Part shown: positions 3-10,287 of the stretch, in pieces
Numbering within the stretch: the first letter of the stretch is position 1
Layout: each line of letters starts with the position of its first letter
Assembly (NCBI GenBank): GCA_019417795.1
Contig: DXUR01000062.1
Coordinates: 1-11,622 of the forward strand
Source: Clostridiales bacterium
Lineage (GTDB): Bacteria; Bacillota_A; Clostridia; Oscillospirales; Oscillospiraceae
Reading direction: 5' to 3'
DNA: 11,622 nucleotides
Translations under genes and position numbers: made by a program
Notes under the pieces: model-generated
Told to the model about the DNA's origin: nothing
The model's input: only the letters and a program-made list of their open reading frames with translations
Database searches by the model: none

Positions 3-431
3 GTGGTGGAGGAAATGATGAAGCTGCTGCCGCTGGTGTTCTATCTTCTGGTGTTTGAGCCGGAGAGCGAGAGAATTAAGCCCGCCGCCATCACGCTCGC
101 CCTGAGCTTCGCCACCTTTGAAAACGTGTGCTATCTCATCCAGAACGGCGCGGACCGCTTCTCCTTCATCTTCTTCCGGGGCTTCGGCACGGGAGCCATG
201 CACGTCCTCTGCGGCCTGATCGTGGGCGGCGGGCTTGCCTATGCGTGGCGGCGGACGTGGCTTAAAATAGCCGGTACGTGCGGGCTGCTGGGCGCGGCCA
301 TCACCCTCCACGCCATCTATAATCTGCTCATTGCTTACGGCGGCGCGGCGCAGTATGTGGCCTATGTCCTGCCGGTGCTGCTGGTAGCGGCGGGAAGATG
401 GTCCGCTTTCCGCTTATCGCAGAGGAAATAA
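3..431 (+). CDS. PrsW-family intramembrane protease, 3' part (5' end outside window)
   Basis: The reading frame is open from the window edge, so the true start probably lies upstream; a GTG at 3 is only the first possible start seen. The visible 142 residues are mostly hydrophobic helices. They carry the motifs known for the PrsW family of membrane glutamic proteases: an EExxK motif at residues 3-7, FxxxE at 36-40 (followed by Asn), and conserved-looking histidines at 67 (GAMHVLCG) and 103 (HAIYN). PrsW of Bacillus subtilis cleaves the anti-sigma factor RsiW within the membrane region; homologues often serve in envelope signalling or bacteriocin contexts. The substrate here is unknown. The gene ends in TAA followed closely by a strong terminator, so it is the last gene of its transcript and is separate from the downstream pair. 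Family assignment is by motif, not by database search. Confidence 0.75.
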   Translation: MVEEMMKLLPLVFYLLVFEPESERIKPAAITLALSFATFENVCYLIQNGADRFSFIFFRGFGTGAMHVLCGLIVGGGLAYAWRRTWLKIAGTCGLLGAAITLHAIYNLLIAYGGAAQYVAYVLPVLLVAAGRWSAFRLSQRK

Positions 432-589: not shown

Positions 590-943
590 ATGTACGATAC
601 CGCAAGACGGGTCGCATTCGTCAAGCAGCGGGTGCGGGAAAACAACCGCCGGAGGCAGCGGCGCGAGGTAATAAGTCTCTCCGCAGCGTGTATGCTGCTG
701 TACGCGGCGCTGATGCAGACAGCGGGCACGGTCGTCGGGCCGGGGCAACCGGAAGCATGGGGCGTGTTCGGCTCGATGCTGCTGCGGCAGGACGCGGGCG
801 GCTATGTGCTGGTGGCCGTCGTCTCCTTTGCAGCGGCGGTGGTCATCACCGCGCTGTGCTTCCGGCTCAGAAGCAAGGAAAACCGGAGAAAAGACGGGAC
901 GGATAAGCCGAACCAACACGAAAAGGAGGAGAAAAGCCAATGA
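590..943 (+). CDS. Small two-helix membrane protein, translationally coupled to the surface protein
   Basis: A 117-residue protein of unrecognised family. The start at 590 is chosen over an in-frame ATG at 536 because GGGGG (574-579 region) sits at ribosome-site distance before it and the protein proper begins with MYDTARR. It has a strongly basic N-terminal segment (about residues 5-28, many Arg), a hydrophobic segment at about 28-50, a short extracytoplasmic loop, a second hydrophobic segment at about 73-95, and a basic, charged C-terminal tail rich in Lys/Glu. Both ends are therefore predicted cytoplasmic. Its TGA stop overlaps the ATG of the next gene (ATGA at 940-943), which implies co-transcription and coupled translation with the giant surface protein. 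By position it might assist membrane insertion or regulation of that protein, but nothing in its sequence shows this. Overlapping frames at 481-906 and on the minus strand look like shadows. Confidence 0.65.
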   Translation: MYDTARRVAFVKQRVRENNRRRQRREVISLSAACMLLYAALMQTAGTVVGPGQPEAWGVFGSMLLRQDAGGYVLVAVVSFAAAVVITALCFRLRSKENRRKDGTDKPNQHEKEEKSQ

Positions 944-3900
944 AGAAACGAATACTCAGTATCATACTTCTATGCTGCATGGTGCTCGTCCTTTTGCCGA
1001 CGACCGTGTTTGCCAACAATGACGGCGCAAAAGCCATACAGCTCGGTACAAGTGGAATCAGTGGTTATGACAGCACAAATCGCAGCTATGACTATATTTA
1101 TTTTGGCACATGGAATAACAGCACCGTCAAATGGCGTGTGCTGGATACAAAAACCAATATGCCCAATGCTCAGGAGGGCGACGGATTTTTTCTGCTCTCT
1201 GATGCGCTGCTTGGGACTGGAGCGTTTGGCGGCGTAGAATTTGATTATACGACCCCATATTTCAACGACTGGAAGGGCAGCCGTGGGCAGGACTGGTGTA
1301 ATGACTTTTACAGCAGAAGTCTCAGCATTACGGAGCAAAAAGCTGTTTTGGCAACCAGCAAAAGTGATGCTCTATATGGTATGTACTATGACGCTTCTGA
1401 CAACATCCTGGATGGGGACAAGGTGTTTTTTCTCTCGGCAGAGGAAGCGGAAAATGCAGCCTACGGATTTACCGATGACAATGCGCGTATCGCCAATTAT
1501 GGCGATAGTGCATACGTATGGTGGCTCCGTTCTCCTAGGAGAATGAACCCTGATTCTGCGGGGACGGTCAATGAAAAGGGCGCTGTGATCGGTGAATGGG
1601 TAGGCCAAACCAACGCCGCCCGCCCTGCCTTCAACCTGAAGCCGGACTCTGTCCTCCTCGTTTCTGCAGCCGTTGGCGGCAAAGGTACTGCTGACGGAAT
1701 GTTCAAAATCCCGGAATACAGCGGGGACGAATGGAAATTGACACTTTTGGACGATACCCGTACTTTTAGGGTAACGGAAACTACCGCAGCAGGAAAACCC
1801 GGCGGCACGGTTACGCTGAATTTTTCCGGGCCGAGAACGGGGTTAAATGAATATATTTCTGCGATTATCGAGGGTGAAAGCGGTGCGACCTATTATGGAA
1901 GGATTATGAAGCCCACTGCCACAGACAGGCAGCTCAGCTTTACACTGCCGCATGACCTTGCCAGTGGAAATTATAAACTCCATGTGTTTTCCGAGCAGTG
2001 TAACGGTGATTACCAGACTGACTACGCCAGCCGATTTCAGACGGTAGCGTTGACGGTGGAGGAGGCAGCCACCGAGCAGTTTGCCCTCACTCCTGGCGGC
2101 ACTTATTACTTTGACCTCTCCGGTGAGAACATTCCAGGCACAATAAACGATGATTTACCGGACAAATCAATGCACTATGTTCCCTTTACCTATGCAGGGG
2201 CAGTGAACGCCTACAAGCTCACATCTGCGATGGCAACCACCGAGGAGTATGCACAGCAGTATAAATACGACCACAGCCTGTTTATAGCGGACCATGCCGT
2301 AACGCATACGGTAAGCTGGGATGACTTAAATACGAAAAGTCTGATTTTCGGCAAGGACTATGTCGCCGGCGGCGTGGACTATACCCTGCGCGCACCGTCT
2401 GTGGGAAGTGACTATACAGGCTCGGATGAGTCCCAACGCGGCGTGCCCCAAAGCAACGAATGGGACACGATGCTGAACAAGAACAGCGGATATATCCAAA
2501 ACTGGAATGGAATGTATTCGTGGGGACAGGATACTGTTTCTGTCGACGCGTCGGACCGTGCGGTTCGCGGGTACATTTCGGCCCGCTTCTGGAACTTCAG
2601 CTATGCTTCGTACTCCTATCCGATCGTCGGTTTCCGCCCCGTCCTTGAAGTCCCGAAACCTGACACACTGGGCTCTGACGGACTGAAGGTCGTTACCCTT
2701 GATCTTGGCGGCGGCAAATTGGGGAATAGCTCCGAGGATATTCAAATCATTGTGAAAACCGGCAGCGAGTTTACCGCGCCTGCGTCCGGCGGTTTGACCC
2801 GCCCGGACGGAAATACAGGCAGCTACTTTATGTGGCTCGGAAGCAACGGTAAGCTCTACGCCCCCGGCGACAACGTTCCGGCGGACGTTACCAAGCTCAC
2901 GGCGCAGTTTGCTTTATCAGAACAGTTTTCCCTCAAGCCCGGCGGCACCTATTACTTTGACCTATCGGCAATGGGTATTCCCGGCACGGTGAACACCGGG
3001 AACGAAGACGGCGCAGTTTCTTTGCCGGATACGTCGCTGCACTATGTTCCCTTTACCTATGCGGGAACAATAGAAGCCTACAAGCTCACGTCTGCGATGG
3101 TGACCACCGAGGAGTATGCACAGCAGAACAAATACGCCCACAGCCTGTTTGTGGCGGACTATGCCGTAACGCATACGATTAGCTGGGGTGGCCTGAATGA
3201 CGAAGGTCTGATTTTCGGCAAAAATTATGCCAGCGGCGGCGTGGACTATACCCTGCGCGCACCGTCTGTGGGAAGTAACTATACAGGTTCGGGCAATTCC
3301 GAACGCGGCGTGCCCCAAAGCAACGAATGGGACACGATGCTGAATAAGGACAGCGGATATATCCAAAACTGGAATGAAATGTATTCGTGGGGACAGGATA
3401 CTGTTTCTGTCGACGCGTCGCTCCGTGCGATTCGCGGGTACACTTCGGCCCGCTACTGGAGCTCCACCACTGCTACGAACTCCTATCCGGACGTCGGTTT
3501 CCGCCCCGTCCTTGAAGTCCTGAACCCTGACACACTGGGCCCTGGCGGGCTGAAGGTCGTTACCCTTGACCTTGGCGGCGGCAAATTGGGCGGCAGCTCC
3601 GAGGATATTCAAATCATTGTGAAAAACGGCAGCGCATTTACCGCTCCCGCATCCGGCGGTCTGAACCGCCCGGACGAAAATACGGGCAGTTACTTTATGT
3701 GGCTTGGCAGCGACGGTGCACTCTACGCACCGGGTGACAGCGTCCCGGCAAACGTGAACAAGCTGACGGCGCAGTTTGATTCCATAGAGCAGTTCGCCCT
3801 CGTTCCCGGCGGCACATATTACTTTGACCTCTCCGGTGCGGGTATTCCCGGCACGGCGAGCGGCAGCCTGCCGGATGCGTCGCTGCACTATGTTCCCTTT

Positions 3901-6618
3901 ACCTACGCCGGGACAGTGGACGCCTACGCGCTCACGTCGGAGATGGCAACCACCGATGAGTATGCAGAGAAGCACAAATATCCACACAGCCTGTTTGTAG
4001 CGGACTTCGCCGTAACGCATACGATAAGCTGGGAGAATCTGAATGCCGCAGGTCTGATTTTTGGAAAAAACTACACTGCCGACAGCGTGGAATATACGAT
4101 GCGCGTGCCGTCAGCAGGACGTTCTTATAGAGGCTCTGGCGATTCTGTACGCGGCAACCCACAAAGCAACGAATGGGACAAAATACTGGACAAATACGAC
4201 GGATATATCAAAAACTGGAGCAAAATATATTCGTGGGGGCAGGATACTGCGCACAATTACGCGCAGGGTCGTGCGAACCGTGGGTATAGCTCGGCCCGCA
4301 ACTGGAGTTTCTACGAATCTTCGGGTGCCAAATCGCACCTTGGTTTCCGTCCCGTCCTGGAAGTCCTGAACGCGAACACCTTGGGCGCTTACGGACTGAA
4401 AGCCATTACCCTTGACCTTGGCGGTGGCAAATTGGGCGGCAGCTCCGAGGCCATCCAGATTATCGTAAAAAACGGTGAGAGCTTTACTGCGCCTGCATCC
4501 GATGGTCTGATCCGGCCGGACGGAGATACCGGCAGCTACTTTATGTGGCTTGGCAGCGACAGCAAGCTCTACGCATCGGGCAGCAGCGTTCCGGCAGATG
4601 TAACCAAGCTGACGGCACAGTTTGCTCCCGGCATTTTTGACGTGACCATCACTACGGACAGACTGCCGGACGGCAAGGTGGGCGAGGCGTATAGCCAGAC
4701 CCTGACCGCCGACGGCACCGAGCCTGTCGCATGGAGCATCAGCAGCGGCAATCTGCCCGACGGTCTGAAGCTGGATGGGAATACCGGCGAGATCAGCGGC
4801 ACGCCTACTGCGGACGGCACCGCCAAATTTACCGTCAAGGCTACCAACAGCGCGGGCAGCAATACGAAGGAGCTGTCTATTACGATAGCTAAAGCCGCGC
4901 CTGCCGAGTATACCGTCAGATTCAACGCCAACGGTGGCGGCGGCACAATGGCAGATGTCACCGGCGTTTCCGGCAGCTACACCCTGCCCTCCTGCGGTTT
5001 TACTGAACCGGAAGGCAAGCAATTCAAGGGTTGGTCAACCAGTGCCGACGGTTCGGTTATTTCCGGCACGACCTATGAAGTAAGCTTGGATACTACCTTC
5101 TATGCAATCTGGGAGAGTAAAGAGTATTCCATCATCGTAACGGACGGCAAAGCGACAATCGGTGCAGGAAGCGAAATCAGTAAAGCGGCGAAAGGCACAA
5201 CCATTACTCTGACCGCAAATGCGGCTCCTGACGGTAAGGTGTTTGATAAGTGGGTAGTAGAAAGCGGCAACACTACTCTTGAAGATGCGAACAGTGAAAC
5301 CACTACTTTCATAATGCCTGACAGTGAAGTCAGCGTGAAAGCGACCTACACAATTCCCCATACCCATACCTACGATCAGGAAATTCAGAAGCCGGAAACC
5401 CTCAAGTCGGCTGCCGACTGCACCAACGATGCAGTATATTTCAAGAGCTGCTCCTGCGGAGAGATCAGCACAACAGAAACCTTTACAGCGGCAGGTACAC
5501 AGCTCGGGCACGCATGGGCAAGCGATTGGAGCAAGGACACAGACAATCATTGGAAAGAATGCTCTCGCTGCCACGAAAAGAAGGACGAGGCGGCTCACGA
5601 TTATGGTAGCGATAACATCTGCGACACCTGCGGATATGACAAGACCGTACCGCATACGCACAATCTGACCCTCGTTCCCGCAAAGGCTCCTACTTGCACG
5701 GAGAAAGGCAACACGGCATATTACACCTGCGACGGCTGTGACAAGTGGTTTGAGGATGCAACCGGTGCATCCGAAATTACCGACAAGACAAGCGTAATCC
5801 TTGCGGCAACAGGTCATAGCGCTTCCGACTGGAAGTCCGATAATACCGATCACTGGAAAGAGTGCACCGTTGTCGGCTGCGGCGTGATCATCGAGGGCAG
5901 CAAGGCGGCGAATACCGCCGGTGAATGGATTATCGACACTCCGGCAACAGCTACCACAAGCGGCTCAAAGCATAAGGAATGCACCGTCTGCGGTTATACG
6001 ATGGCAACCGAAACTATCCAGGCAACCGGCGGCGGTGAGCATACTCACAGCTACGGCAGCGAGTGGAAGAACGATGCCGACAACCACTGGCATGAGTGCT
6101 CCTGCGGCGATAAGAAAGATACAGCAGCGCATACCGCCGGCGAATGGATCATCGATACCCCGGCAACAGCTACCACAAGCGGCACAAAGCATAAGAAATG
6201 CACCGTCTGCGGTTATACGATGACAATCGAAACTATCTCGGCAACCGGCGGCGAGCATACTCACAGCTACGGCTCCGACTGGAAGAACGATGCTACGAAC
6301 CACTGGCATGAGTGCTCTTGCGGAGATAAGGCCGATAAGGCGGCACACGACTTCAAGTGGGTTGTTGACAAGGAAGCGACCGCAACGCAAAAGGGTTCCA
6401 AGCATGAGGAGTGCAGGGGTTGCGGCTACAAGAAGGCGGCAGTTGAGATTCCGGCTACCGGAACACCGACTGAGCCGGGCAAGCCGACCGATTCGGATTC
6501 TCTGCAGACCGGTGACAACAGCAATATGATCCTCTGGATCGCACTGCTGTTTGTCAGCGGCGGCGTAGTGATCGGCATCATCGTTTACAGCAAAAAGAAG
6601 AAAGAAAACGCTGAATAA
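940..6618 (+). CDS. Giant sortase-anchored surface protein with DUF6273-like, three variable lectin-like repeats, Ig and InlB-type domains
   Basis: A 1892-residue secreted protein. AGGAGG (924-929) precedes the ATG. Residues 1-25 form a signal peptide ending VFA. Residues about 45-240 resemble DUF6273 (WWLRSP at 194-199, ARPAFNL at 227-233). Three tandem repeats follow at residues 379-660, 661-949 and 950-1230. Each begins GGTYYFDLS, passes a conserved SNEWD...YSWGQDT block, and ends RGYxSARxW...GFRPVLEV plus an 85-residue TLDLGGG...LTAQF module. Then come a putative Ig domain (about 1231-1319, LPDGLKLDGNTGEISGTP), an InlB-type B-repeat (about 1322-1392, ending FKGWS...FYAIWE), a divergent InlB-like module (about 1395-1472), Cys/His repeats (about 1473-1840), and SLQTGD (1854-1859), a hydrophobic helix and KKKK. 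It is probably a wall-displayed binding protein. Ligand unknown. The lectin-like blocks look like DGR-diversified sites. DUF6273 naming is by memory of motifs. Confidence 0.9.
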   Translation: MKKRILSIILLCCMVLVLLPTTVFANNDGAKAIQLGTSGISGYDSTNRSYDYIYFGTWNNSTVKWRVLDTKTNMPNAQEGDGFFLLSDALLGTGAFGGVEFDYTTPYFNDWKGSRGQDWCNDFYSRSLSITEQKAVLATSKSDALYGMYYDASDNILDGDKVFFLSAEEAENAAYGFTDDNARIANYGDSAYVWWLRSPRRMNPDSAGTVNEKGAVIGEWVGQTNAARPAFNLKPDSVLLVSAAVGGKGTADGMFKIPEYSGDEWKLTLLDDTRTFRVTETTAAGKPGGTVTLNFSGPRTGLNEYISAIIEGESGATYYGRIMKPTATDRQLSFTLPHDLASGNYKLHVFSEQCNGDYQTDYASRFQTVALTVEEAATEQFALTPGGTYYFDLSGENIPGTINDDLPDKSMHYVPFTYAGAVNAYKLTSAMATTEEYAQQYKYDHSLFIADHAVTHTVSWDDLNTKSLIFGKDYVAGGVDYTLRAPSVGSDYTGSDESQRGVPQSNEWDTMLNKNSGYIQNWNGMYSWGQDTVSVDASDRAVRGYISARFWNFSYASYSYPIVGFRPVLEVPKPDTLGSDGLKVVTLDLGGGKLGNSSEDIQIIVKTGSEFTAPASGGLTRPDGNTGSYFMWLGSNGKLYAPGDNVPADVTKLTAQFALSEQFSLKPGGTYYFDLSAMGIPGTVNTGNEDGAVSLPDTSLHYVPFTYAGTIEAYKLTSAMVTTEEYAQQNKYAHSLFVADYAVTHTISWGGLNDEGLIFGKNYASGGVDYTLRAPSVGSNYTGSGNSERGVPQSNEWDTMLNKDSGYIQNWNEMYSWGQDTVSVDASLRAIRGYTSARYWSSTTATNSYPDVGFRPVLEVLNPDTLGPGGLKVVTLDLGGGKLGGSSEDIQIIVKNGSAFTAPASGGLNRPDENTGSYFMWLGSDGALYAPGDSVPANVNKLTAQFDSIEQFALVPGGTYYFDLSGAGIPGTASGSLPDASLHYVPFTYAGTVDAYALTSEMATTDEYAEKHKYPHSLFVADFAVTHTISWENLNAAGLIFGKNYTADSVEYTMRVPSAGRSYRGSGDSVRGNPQSNEWDKILDKYDGYIKNWSKIYSWGQDTAHNYAQGRANRGYSSARNWSFYESSGAKSHLGFRPVLEVLNANTLGAYGLKAITLDLGGGKLGGSSEAIQIIVKNGESFTAPASDGLIRPDGDTGSYFMWLGSDSKLYASGSSVPADVTKLTAQFAPGIFDVTITTDRLPDGKVGEAYSQTLTADGTEPVAWSISSGNLPDGLKLDGNTGEISGTPTADGTAKFTVKATNSAGSNTKELSITIAKAAPAEYTVRFNANGGGGTMADVTGVSGSYTLPSCGFTEPEGKQFKGWSTSADGSVISGTTYEVSLDTTFYAIWESKEYSIIVTDGKATIGAGSEISKAAKGTTITLTANAAPDGKVFDKWVVESGNTTLEDANSETTTFIMPDSEVSVKATYTIPHTHTYDQEIQKPETLKSAADCTNDAVYFKSCSCGEISTTETFTAAGTQLGHAWASDWSKDTDNHWKECSRCHEKKDEAAHDYGSDNICDTCGYDKTVPHTHNLTLVPAKAPTCTEKGNTAYYTCDGCDKWFEDATGASEITDKTSVILAATGHSASDWKSDNTDHWKECTVVGCGVIIEGSKAANTAGEWIIDTPATATTSGSKHKECTVCGYTMATETIQATGGGEHTHSYGSEWKNDADNHWHECSCGDKKDTAAHTAGEWIIDTPATATTSGTKHKKCTVCGYTMTIETISATGGEHTHSYGSDWKNDATNHWHECSCGDKADKAAHDFKWVVDKEATATQKGSKHEECRGCGYKKAAVEIPATGTPTEPGKPTDSDSLQTGDNSNMILWIALLFVSGGVVIGIIVYSKKKKENAE
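2554..2625 (+). other. Variable region 1 (DGR-like), residues 539-562
   Basis: This block encodes the stretch between the invariant DAS and VGFRPVLEV segments of repeat 1. Compared with repeat 2, eleven codons differ here: GAC/CTC, GTT/ATT, ATT/ACT, TTC/TAC, AAC/AGC, TTC/TCC, AGC/ACC, TAT/ACT, TCG/ACG, TAC/AAC and ATC/GAC. None differs at the third position. The 43 bases before (2511-2553) and 29 bases after (2625-2653) are identical between repeats. The GC-rich flank GTCGGTTTCCGCCCC resembles the position of an initiation-of-mutagenic-homing site, which is an inference. Confidence 0.7.
3421..3492 (+). other. Variable region 2 (DGR-like), residues 828-851
   Basis: The counterpart of variable region 1 in repeat 2, exactly 867 bases downstream. 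The framework codons (Arg-Ala, Arg-Gly-Tyr, Ser-Ala-Arg, Trp, Ser-Tyr-Pro) are base-for-base the same as in repeat 1, while the intervening codons differ only at first or second positions. The variable codons mostly end in C or T, as expected if the template carries AAC/AAT-type codons. Confidence 0.7.
4267..4338 (+). other. Variable region 3, diverged counterpart in repeat 3, residues 1110-1133
   Basis: The same framework (RANRGYxSARxW ... GFRPVLEV) is present, and the segment has the same number of codons. Here, however, framework codons also differ silently from repeats 1 and 2 (for example CGT for CGC and CTG for CTT), and extra positions are changed (Pro to Ser, Ser to Ala, Val to Leu). 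It may be an older, no longer targeted copy, or it may match another template. Confidence 0.5.
5914..6348 (+). repeat. 219-bp direct repeat in the Cys/His tail of the surface gene
   Basis: Copy A starts at 5914 and copy B at 6133, a period of 219 bases (73 residues). Each unit encodes AGEWIIDTPATATTSG, KHKxCTVCGYT, EHTHSYGSxW and NHWHECSCGDK. The copies are nearly identical at DNA level, and further partial, more diverged units lie before and after. The CxxC and CxC pairs with nearby His could bind metal, but this is not established. Such units are common in the stalk regions of gut Firmicute surface proteins. Confidence 0.8.
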
Positions 6619-6619
6619 A

Positions 6620-6826
6620 TCAGCTGCGAACCTTTGAGCAAAGGGCGGTGACGGACATTGCCGTCATCGCCCTTTCGCTTGGACTGGAGAAGAAATCTTC
6701 CATTGATTTATAGCCTGTCCACTTCATAAAGTGACGTATGTTGTTGATATAGGTATCTGCAGTTCGGGAGGATCTGTTACGAATCAGGCATTCCTCTCTG
6801 AGCTTGCTAAAATATTTTTCGTACAT
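6620..6826 (-). pseudogene. Truncated tyrosine recombinase, N-terminal SAM-like DNA-binding part only
   Basis: Reading from ATG at 6826 (preceded by GGAGG at 6833-6837), the first 45 or so residues (MYEKYFSKLREEC, then NRSSRTADTYINNIRHFMKWTG) have the look of the N-terminal core-binding domain of phage-integrase-type tyrosine recombinases. Those domains pack against DNA and precede the catalytic Arg-His-Arg-Tyr domain. After MEDFF the resemblance stops, the frame runs through the complement of the surface-gene hairpin and ends at 6620, and no catalytic domain is present. A full-length recombinase would be some 280-400 residues, so this is a remnant of an inserted element cut at about 6690. 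An upstream in-frame ATG at 6883 is unlikely because the SD favours 6826. I recall similar recombinases accompanying IS91-like transposases, but no transposase is visible here. Confidence 0.6.
6638..6680 (+). terminator. Stem-loop terminator after the surface protein gene
   Basis: A 15-bp stem (6640-6654 with 6661-6675, one G-T wobble) with a 6-base loop begins 21 bases after the TAA at 6616-6618. The T tract after it is weak (TTTCGCTT), so it could also act as a 3' stabilising hairpin. Confidence 0.7.
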
Positions 6827-6830
6827 AATA

Positions 6831-6880
6831 AACCTCCATGATACTAGTAACGTTAATGAGTCACTGCCATCATGGAGGTT
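6831..6880 (-). repeat. Perfect 12-bp inverted repeat covering the ribosome site of the recombinase remnant
   Basis: AACCTCCATGAT at 6831-6842 is mirrored by ATCATGGAGGTT at 6869-6880, with a 26-base loop. On the minus-strand transcript the second arm contains the GGAGG that serves the ATG at 6826, so the folded hairpin would hide the ribosome site. It could equally be an element end. Confidence 0.75.
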
Positions 6881-6883
6881 CAC

Positions 6884-7990: not shown

Positions 7991-8749
7991 ATGGCTTTTG
8001 AAGAAGAACTTAAAACACTAATAGAAAGAACAAAAAAGAATGGCACAGATACATCTTATAAAGAATCGTATGAAGCAATAAATAGTAATTTTTATGATGT
8101 AAAAAAGCAACACGAAATATGGATGAATGATGTTGAAATATTTTTCAATAAATATTTAAAGGAGCATGTGTTAGCTCCGAAAATAGAGTCATGGCTATTT
8201 CATAGGAAATATAATCAATTAGTTGCGGCGTTAGAAAGTATATGTAATGACAAGAACTATATAGATAAAATGAATGGCATATCAACAGTGGAAGTGCCAA
8301 AGTATCAAGCAAATTCGTTGCCAGAATATGATGTTTTTATATCTCATGCGAATAAGGATAAAGAGAATCTAATAGAGGAACTATATAAGTCTCTAAAAAA
8401 GTTGGGTGTTAAAATATTTTATGATAAAGAAGAACTTGAATGGGGAGATAATTGGAAGGACAGAATCCTTAATGGGACTAAGAAAGCTGAATTTGCAATT
8501 ATTGTGATTTCAGAGAATTTCTTTGATAGAGAATGGACCGAGAGAGAACTTGGCGAGTTCTTGAATCGTCAAAATAGAAATGGACAGAAATTAATTTTGC
8601 CTATTTTACATAATATTTCTGTAGAGCAATTAAAGGAGAAATATCCGACAGTTGCAGATATCCAGGCAATAGATTCGTCTAAATATAGTTGTGATGAGAT
8701 AGCGCTTTCGTTTGCCAGGCAGTTAATCAAACGTTTGAAAAACATTTAG
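7991..8749 (+). CDS. TIR-domain protein with helical N-terminal domain (candidate anti-phage effector)
   Basis: A 252-residue soluble protein. AGGGG lies just upstream of the ATG at 7991. Residues 1-105 are charged, mostly helical, and of no family I recognise. Residues about 112-245 form a TIR domain: strand A EYDVFISHA (112-120), LGVKIFYDKEELEWGDNW (138-155), strand D FAIIVISENFF (168-178), and WTERELGEF (182-190). Glu186 in the WxxxEL context corresponds to the catalytic Glu of NAD-cleaving TIR domains. Many bacterial TIR proteins deplete NAD+ or make signalling nucleotides during abortive defence, but others are scaffolds. There is no signal peptide or membrane segment, so it acts in the cytoplasm. 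It is transcribed from its own promoter, and a regulator-like AlbA_2 gene follows 98 bases later with no terminator between. AT-rich codon use, unlike the upstream genes, suggests transfer. Confidence 0.85.
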   Translation: MAFEEELKTLIERTKKNGTDTSYKESYEAINSNFYDVKKQHEIWMNDVEIFFNKYLKEHVLAPKIESWLFHRKYNQLVAALESICNDKNYIDKMNGISTVEVPKYQANSLPEYDVFISHANKDKENLIEELYKSLKKLGVKIFYDKEELEWGDNWKDRILNGTKKAEFAIIVISENFFDREWTERELGEFLNRQNRNGQKLILPILHNISVEQLKEKYPTVADIQAIDSSKYSCDEIALSFARQLIKRLKNI

Positions 8750-8847: not shown

Positions 8848-10287
8848 ATGGCAGAAGAGACACTGTTTTCCGGCGAATCAAAAAATATTGAATATAAGGT
8901 TGCAGTACCGGATAAAAGCGAAAAATATATGAAAACTGTTGTAGCTTTTGCCAATGGTAGGGGAGGAAAAATTGTTTTCGGAATAGAGGACAAGACCTTA
9001 GAAGTTGTGGGAATGGATGAAGATAGTATCTATAAGACAATGGATGCCATTACCAATGCTATTTCAGATTCTTGCGAACCTGCAATCAGACCGGATGTGG
9101 CGATGCAGACGATTAAGGATAAGACAGTGATTGTGGTAGAGATATTCCCAGGGGCAGAGCGTCCATACTATATAAAATCACAAGGTGTGTTTGATGGTAC
9201 TTATGTGCGTGTTGCAGGTACGACTAGGCATGTCGAGGATTATATGTTAAGAGAGTTGATGCTGGAAGGTAAGAATCGTTATTTTGACAGTGAAATATGT
9301 CAGAATATGGATATATCAGATAGTGAGATTGAGGAGCTCTGCAAGAGCTTGAAGGAGACTGCCATACGAAATACATGGCAGGATAGTGAAAAAGTGAAGA
9401 TTAAGGATGTCACCAGAAATATACTGATTTCATGGGGCGTTCTGAAGGAGGAAGGCGGAAAGGTATATCCGACCAATGCATATGCACTTTTGACCGGACG
9501 GATGGTAGGGCAGCCGGTTATTCAGTGCGGCGTGTTCAAGGGAACCAATCGGGCACATTTTGTTGATCGGAGAGAGTTTGAGGGTTCTATTCAGGAACAA
9601 ATGGATGCTGCATACCAGTATGTTCTTGAAAAAATTAACATGGGAATGACAATAAAGGGAATGTACAGACAAGATGTATATGAACTTCCTACAGATAGCA
9701 TAAGAGAGTTGATTGCAAACGCAGTGGCTCATCGTAGTTATCTTGAGCCGGGAAATATACAAGTGGCATTGTATGATGACAGACTAGAGATTACTTCGCC
9801 GGGTATGCTACTGAATAATGTTACGATCGAAAAAATGATAGAAGGTTACTCAAGACCGAGAAATCCCGCAATCGCAAGAGCTTTTGCGTACATGAAAATT
9901 ATTGAAAAATGGGGAACTGGAATACCAAGGTTATTTGCAGCCTGTGAGGAATATGGATTACCGAAGCCGGAGTTGATTGATTTTGATGGCGATTTCAGAG
10001 TAAATATGTATCGAAAAAGGGATGCTAATACAGAAACTAACACAGAAACTAACATAGAAACTAACACAGAAACTAACATAGAAACTAACACAGAAACTAA
10101 CACAGAAAATGTAGGGAGAATAATTAGGCTCATGGGTGAACAGCCTTCCATTACAGTAAAGATGATTGCACAGCAGCTTGGGCTTTCTGTTGGAGGAGTT
10201 CGCTATCATATCAATAAATTAAAGAAAGATGGTGTTGTGGAGCATATCGGTTCTTCTAAGAAAGGTACATGGGTAATCCATGATTAA
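8848..10287 (+). CDS. AlbA_2 (Schlafen-like) / ATPase-fold / winged-helix protein, COG2865-type
   Basis: A 479-residue protein; TTGGAGG (8834-8840) precedes the ATG by seven bases. The N-terminal domain (about residues 8-130) matches the AlbA_2/Schlafen divergent AAA region, with ESKNIEYK (10-17) and AFANGRGGKIVFGIED (33-48). A C-terminal GHKL-like ATPase fold (HATPase_c_4) spans about 275-390, with RELIANAVAHRSY (286-298, N-box Asn) and GTGIPRL (356-362). A repetitive Thr-Asn-Thr-Glu linker (394-420) joins a winged helix (421-479, ITVKMIAQQLGLSVGGVRYHINKLKKDG). Proteins of this layout are annotated as ATP-binding or transcriptional regulators and are often in accessory or defence regions; biochemical roles are mostly unknown. 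It may be cotranscribed with the TIR gene. It may regulate that gene or itself be an effector, and the sequence does not decide. Confidence 0.85.
   Translation: MAEETLFSGESKNIEYKVAVPDKSEKYMKTVVAFANGRGGKIVFGIEDKTLEVVGMDEDSIYKTMDAITNAISDSCEPAIRPDVAMQTIKDKTVIVVEIFPGAERPYYIKSQGVFDGTYVRVAGTTRHVEDYMLRELMLEGKNRYFDSEICQNMDISDSEIEELCKSLKETAIRNTWQDSEKVKIKDVTRNILISWGVLKEEGGKVYPTNAYALLTGRMVGQPVIQCGVFKGTNRAHFVDRREFEGSIQEQMDAAYQYVLEKINMGMTIKGMYRQDVYELPTDSIRELIANAVAHRSYLEPGNIQVALYDDRLEITSPGMLLNNVTIEKMIEGYSRPRNPAIARAFAYMKIIEKWGTGIPRLFAACEEYGLPKPELIDFDGDFRVNMYRKRDANTETNTETNIETNTETNIETNTETNTENVGRIIRLMGEQPSITVKMIAQQLGLSVGGVRYHINKLKKDGVVEHIGSSKKGTWVIHD
10030..10101 (+). repeat. 12-bp minisatellite, six units, in the AlbA_2 gene
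   Basis: Six head-to-tail copies of ACAGAAACTAAC (units 3 and 5 have ATAG in place of ACAG) are followed by a partial seventh. Each unit encodes four residues (Thr-Glu-Thr-Asn phase), so gain or loss of units would keep the frame and only change linker length between the ATPase-fold and winged-helix domains. Confidence 0.95.

Follow-up and report, generated by a model that had tools for sequence, protein, structure and literature searches.

The window, by which we mean the whole 11,622-nucleotide stretch of DNA analysed, carries a surface protein gene with two variable regions (VRs) that differ almost exclusively at adenines from the template of a diversity-generating retroelement (DGR) present in Faecalibacterium phage FP_Mushu. 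In our opinion the bacterial repeats were probably written in trans by a DGR of the Mushuvirus type, and then retained and spread without the phage; the sequence comparison suggests that a viral mutation machine is able to rewrite bacterial genes. The features concerned are the following, mismatches being counted against the FP_Mushu template:

3..431, + strand: PrsW-type protease gene, open at the window's edge, upstream of the surface protein gene (Pfam)
590..943, + strand: small membrane-protein-like ORF between the PrsW and the surface protein genes, with matches in loci L010, L012, L013 and L015
940..6618, + strand: surface protein gene, 1892 amino acids (ORF, Pfam)
2077..2664, + strand: repeat domain R1 (alignment; model and fold match)
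2548..2640, + strand: VR1, 12/22 template-A and 1/71 other mismatches, p = 1.8e-8
2641..2658, + strand: VR1 3′ flank of VR type, not template type, candidate homing signal; 3/18 bases differ from the phage VR flank
2923..3531, + strand: repeat domain R2 (alignment)
3415..3507, + strand: VR2, 11/22 template-A and 2/71 other mismatches, p = 6.9e-7
3508..3525, + strand: VR2 3′ flank of VR type; 1/18 bases differs from the phage VR flank
3790..4377, + strand: repeat domain R3 (alignment)
4261..4353, + strand: VR3, 12/22 template-A and 19/71 other mismatches, p = 0.017

The surface protein begins with an N-terminal region containing DUF6273, followed by the three lectin-like repeats and He_PIG; Pfam also recognizes Flg_new and Flg_new_2, i.e. 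InlB/List-Bact-type repeats, and the C-terminus is sortase-like, with an LPXTG model score of 13.5 bits that lies below the 15.9-bit cut-off. R1 to R3 are 196–203 amino acids long in the alignment. They correspond to no Pfam model, even at an E-value of 10, and Foldseek gave no match at E 0.001. Modelling points to a C-type lectin-like fold in which the variable residues lie at the domain's end, and the predicted fold of R1 appears to be that of known DGR targets. When the gene is compared with L005, a sequence of the same locus, 115 clustered substitutions are seen, 38 of them in the bin from 3500 and 45 in the bins from 750 and 1000, a pattern that an exchange of repeat and 5′ parts by recombination would produce.

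The preliminary description of this DNA, made on R1 and R2 (offset 867), reported identity over 2511–2553 and 2625–2653 and, over 2554–2624, 14 differing bases in 11 codons, none of them at a third codon position, each of the 11 codons altering its residue, and with A in one copy at 10 of the 14 sites. A codon table bears out each of these points. The phage template, which is defined independently, places 13 of the 14 differences on its 22 adenines and only one on its 71 other bases (Fisher p = 2.4e-9). At least two internal variable regions had been proposed, and VR1 and VR2 do match the phage template, but the third copy, R3, had been overlooked. R3 shares the VR layout of R1 and R2, yet VR3 looks older because of its 19 non-adenine mismatches, and seems to be either decayed or derived from a different template. 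Differences are confined to template adenines in VR1 and VR2, and only weakly so in VR3.

To find the template, viral contigs were searched with the expected template core carrying A at the variable sites. Seven viral contigs match this core, and a reverse transcriptase (RT) frame containing GNxxSQ is present in at least five of them. Five records matched when annotated phages were searched at the DNA level, including FP_Mushu and Mushuvirus mushu strain Zape3, for which Avd, RT and a Hoc-like target are annotated. In FP_Mushu, RT, bAvd and template occur together, the Avd matching the bAvd model PF22296; the template (L061, 5949–6041) comprises 22 A and 71 other bases, and the phage's own VR shows no non-A mismatch to it. 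The non-A change of VR2 at template position 16 is an A in a related template, L060, and the true template is therefore close to, and not identical with, that of FP_Mushu. The single VR difference between the window and G001, the nearest relative genome examined (G/C at 2563), is also at a site that is A in L060. One further sequence, L045, has a template-like core that continues directly, in one frame, into a target-like end, with no RT frame found between; this layout may be either a rearrangement or an assembly chimera.

Among known systems, the likeness is to Mushuvirus mushu/FP_Mushu (MG711460, BK063464) and extends to the template repeat, the VR core, ∼18 bases at the start of the 3′ flank and the A-specific differences. 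The FP_Mushu target and the repeats of the window are homologous lectin-like domains, with 37% amino-acid identity. However, the phage holds a complete cassette (Avd, RT, template and target) with a single VR in a Hoc-like capsid target, whereas in the window three VRs lie in a bacterial operon that lacks a cassette.

A scan in template register gave 45 distinct sequences, i.e. 10 templates, 10 phage-type VRs and 25 bacterial-type VRs; copies with indels cannot appear in it, identical copies count once, and L043, L048–L050, L053–L057 and L059 fall outside it. Eight of the 25 bacterial-type VRs have at most two non-A mismatches (window VR1 and VR2, L005, L009, L010, L011, L013 and L068), 12 have at most six, and the other 13 have at least ten. 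Six were pooled, namely window VR1 and VR2 and one each of L009, L010, L011 and L013, L005 (same locus) and L068 being left out. Their mismatches to the template amount to 77/132 at A, 4/198 at C, 4/138 at G and 1/90 at T, the low non-A rate being partly due to choice, since a small number of non-A mismatches was the ground for selecting these VRs. In rewritten AAY codons the third base of the template was retained in 52 cases out of 54, while 23.5 would be expected from the codon use of the gene, a count that the choice of low-mismatch VRs also favours somewhat. Residues common to the phage target and the VR are specified by the same codon in 20/20 cases for R1 and 18/18 for R2, as against 11/34 and 6/24 in the body of the domain. 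Duplication of the repeat and subsequent positive selection on binding residues, without any DGR, would likewise favour the first two codon positions when surface residues change, but it fits neither the retention of third bases nor the near-identity of the non-A bases to a non-coding phage template; for VR1 and VR2 we take it to be refuted by template match, third-base and codon identity, and give it practically no credence. A lower synonymous divergence of the VRs (0.21 versus 0.28 for 22 bacterial copies) was considered as proof of common templating, found too weak and left unused.

The limits of the similarity bear on how the bacterial gene received its VRs. Upstream there is a sharp boundary: similarity ends at the 5′ edge of the template, and the pooled six differ from the phage at 93–100 of 150 bases. 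For window VR1, the differences from the phage VR number 93/150 upstream, 1/71 in the non-A part of the VR, 6/30 just downstream and 87/120 beyond. Downstream, the pooled six differ from the phage VR at 8/108 positions in bases 1–18 and at 21/72 in bases 19–30, and within the non-A VR at 9/426. That similarity runs ∼18 bases beyond the 3′ end of the template into the phage VR flank, with the same codon at 7/7 residues common with the phage, speaks against a clean 3′ boundary and favours the main rival explanation, namely that the action of the phage DGR was limited to the phage's own target, and that homologous recombination in the course of infection then brought completed phage VRs into bacterial genes. 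Such recombination would also suit bacterial sites that have no hairpin. On the other hand, it is at odds with the abrupt upstream limit, seen in all six VRs, and with a non-A VR core that is nearer to the phage VR than are the first 18 downstream bases (p = 0.01), and all the more than bases 19–30. On balance we consider this route unlikely.

The 3′ end reads GTCCTTGAA in the VRs versus GCCTTGTAG in the phage template, so that the bacterial copies carry a candidate homing signal of VR type. An inverted repeat with a 6-bp stem follows the VR in 3/3 phage VRs; no such repeat is conserved at the seven bacterial VRs folded. By adenine specificity, predicted fold and 3′ end, VR1 and VR2 are nevertheless DGR variable regions. 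In Bordetella phage BPP-1 (Mtd), where a phage gene is targeted in cis, one study indicates that the downstream hairpin is needed for efficient homing, suggests residual homing without it, and describes how moving the homing signal together with the hairpin redirects homing to another gene (PMC3240598). Bacterial targets of the type found in the window differ from BPP-1 in having no conserved inverted repeat.

A template copy next to an RT had been expected in the source genome. In the nearest relative, G001 (2.9 Mb in one contig, 99% complete, locus at 98% identity), the VR query matches the three VRs only and the template pattern has no match; the only RT gives its best NCBIfam match to a group II model, and no DGR-type RT was found. 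Of the earlier DGR reading, the mutation pattern holds, but, judging by G001, the machinery is not where it was expected, and the surface locus is not a DGR cassette. The group II-type RT is ruled out as the motor by its TIGR04416 match, and a resident DGR in G001 is rejected, neither a DGR-type RT nor a template having been found there. The Avd model PF05635 had no match in G001, nor in the control genomes. Beside the homologues in L009–L020 and L021–L023, a simple motif scan, which could miss one, revealed no DGR-like RT. With the Mushu RT as query, the best match in eight target-bearing genomes, most of them drafts, was a group II-type one at 54 bits. The template pattern was absent from 12 records (two matches being VRs). 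An RT of genome G041 (L035) has the motif LPLGVEPSQ, DGR-like in that motif, and does not match the Mushu RT query.

A larger sample gave a similar picture. Among 397 genomes of the family of G001 no template was found, the one match lying at the contig position of the Hominifimenecus VR, and among 396 sampled genomes of a second family there was no match. In the family of G041, 10 of 400 genomes match the template query (two best candidates per genome scored). G1009 and G851 have a template, a close RT (762 and 667 bits) and phage-type VRs. G1090 has a 100% template match within an FP_Mushu-like stretch (L064) that is 99.5% identical and stops ∼165 bases past the match, and no close RT was found there with the Mushu RT query. 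G1102 has a more distant template, and the remaining matches are VRs or short matches. Template and bacterial-type VR were not found together in any of the genomes examined, most of which are drafts. One could suppose that the VRs were written by a resident DGR with a template of the same lineage, carried by unsampled strains on a plasmid, an integrative element or the chromosome itself, and that this DGR has since been lost or is missing from the genomes compared, for the comparison rests on G001 and not on the source genome itself, and drafts make up most of the genomes examined. Isolates of Treponema denticola offer a parallel: orphan targets without RT and template are described there and read as remnants (PMC4891356). 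Yet the template was not found in the 397 and 396 genomes sampled in the two families, and the strong template matches seen are in phages or phage-like cassettes, which makes a resident element improbable. The remote or orphan targets of T. denticola (TvpA family), as presented in the same source (PMC4891356), have their template in the same species, whereas the template that matches the window's VRs is known from a phage and targets of this type occur in at least three bacterial families.

R2 of the window matches repeat 3 of L009 (Ruminococcaceae bacterium D5) at 150/150 upstream and 30/30 downstream bases, while their VRs differ at 17/93 bases, i.e. 13 A and 4 non-A sites. The best 120 metagenomic proteins listed contained 493 domains and 408 pattern-readable VR strings, 142 of them distinct; among these matches, at least 61 pairs of distinct copies combine flank identity of ≥95% with VR identity of ≤85%, the flanks of some being identical across 120 residues. 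Unchanged VR strings recur among the same matches (VR2 in 14/408, VR1 in 6 and its G001 version in 5), so that there is no sign of current VR activity. The gut family to which the protein belongs comprises at least 7970 scored related proteins. Other Clostridia also have surface genes with near-pristine VRs that carry different mutations, namely Hominifimenecus (Lachnospiraceae), Gemmiger (Oscillospiraceae), Pseudoruminococcus (Acutalibacteraceae), Ruminococcaceae bacterium D5 and others. The surface gene is preceded by PrsW and sigma-factor genes in L009, L010, L012 and L015, i.e. in 4 of the 15 loci compared (L009–L023, of which one is a duplicate and some are too short to be judged). This gene order, together with flanks in G001 that read, from their ORFs, as apparent housekeeping genes, is more suggestive of a bacterial operon than of a prophage.

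Further along the window, a TIR-domain protein (7991–8749; best PADLOC matches PDC-S66 and ThsB) adjoins an AlbA/Schlafen-type protein (8848–10287), a defence-like pair. The AlbA-type gene has an in-frame 12-base tandem repeat at 10025–10108 and encodes 479 amino acids in the window versus 471 in G001. Directly behind the surface gene, a short minus-strand ORF (6620–6883) with a sub-threshold match to a phage-integrase N-terminal domain (20.9 of 27 bits) is possibly a mobile-element remnant.

Taken as writing in trans by a Mushuvirus-type DGR, these data would fit the following course. A Mu-like gut phage would supply the RT and Avd that make adenine-mutated cDNA from the phage template; during lysogeny or infection this cDNA would home in trans, within one cell, into VR1 and VR2, two of the VRs in which the three tandem lectin-like domains end, by way of their VR-type 3′ end, and overwrite them. 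Finished variants would be selected, presumably for varied ligand binding at the cell surface, kept and reshuffled among the repeats, and would spread between Clostridia with the operon, in cells that have since lost the phage. The weak points of homing in trans are the missing inverted repeat and the fact that template and target were not seen to reside together. The 13 bacterial-type VRs with at least ten non-A mismatches also count against this reading. As for the phage, strong VR variation is reported in Mushu after one induction (PMC5883640) and, in a later study, no clear VR peak (PMC11792537), which suggests that its DGR is not always on; PMC10805732 describes a host range that is broad within Oscillospiraceae, and a Hoc-like gene that the DGR varies. 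Whether DGR-bearing Mu-like gut phages in general hypermutate host surface-protein genes in trans, as a shared source of variants for several families that is archived in tandem arrays, we regard as an even bet.

As a rule, a DGR and its targets are described from one and the same genome, and our search of the openly available literature yielded no paper in which a phage DGR acts on the genes of bacteria. In the present case, the VRs belong to bacterial surface genes from a very large gut family, and their best template match is in a phage. Surveys are already said to miss remote DGR targets (PMC8144416); if homing from one replicon to another is true, those that seek a VR beside an RT would miss targets such as these, and the phage would shape the surface of its hosts by directed mutation.
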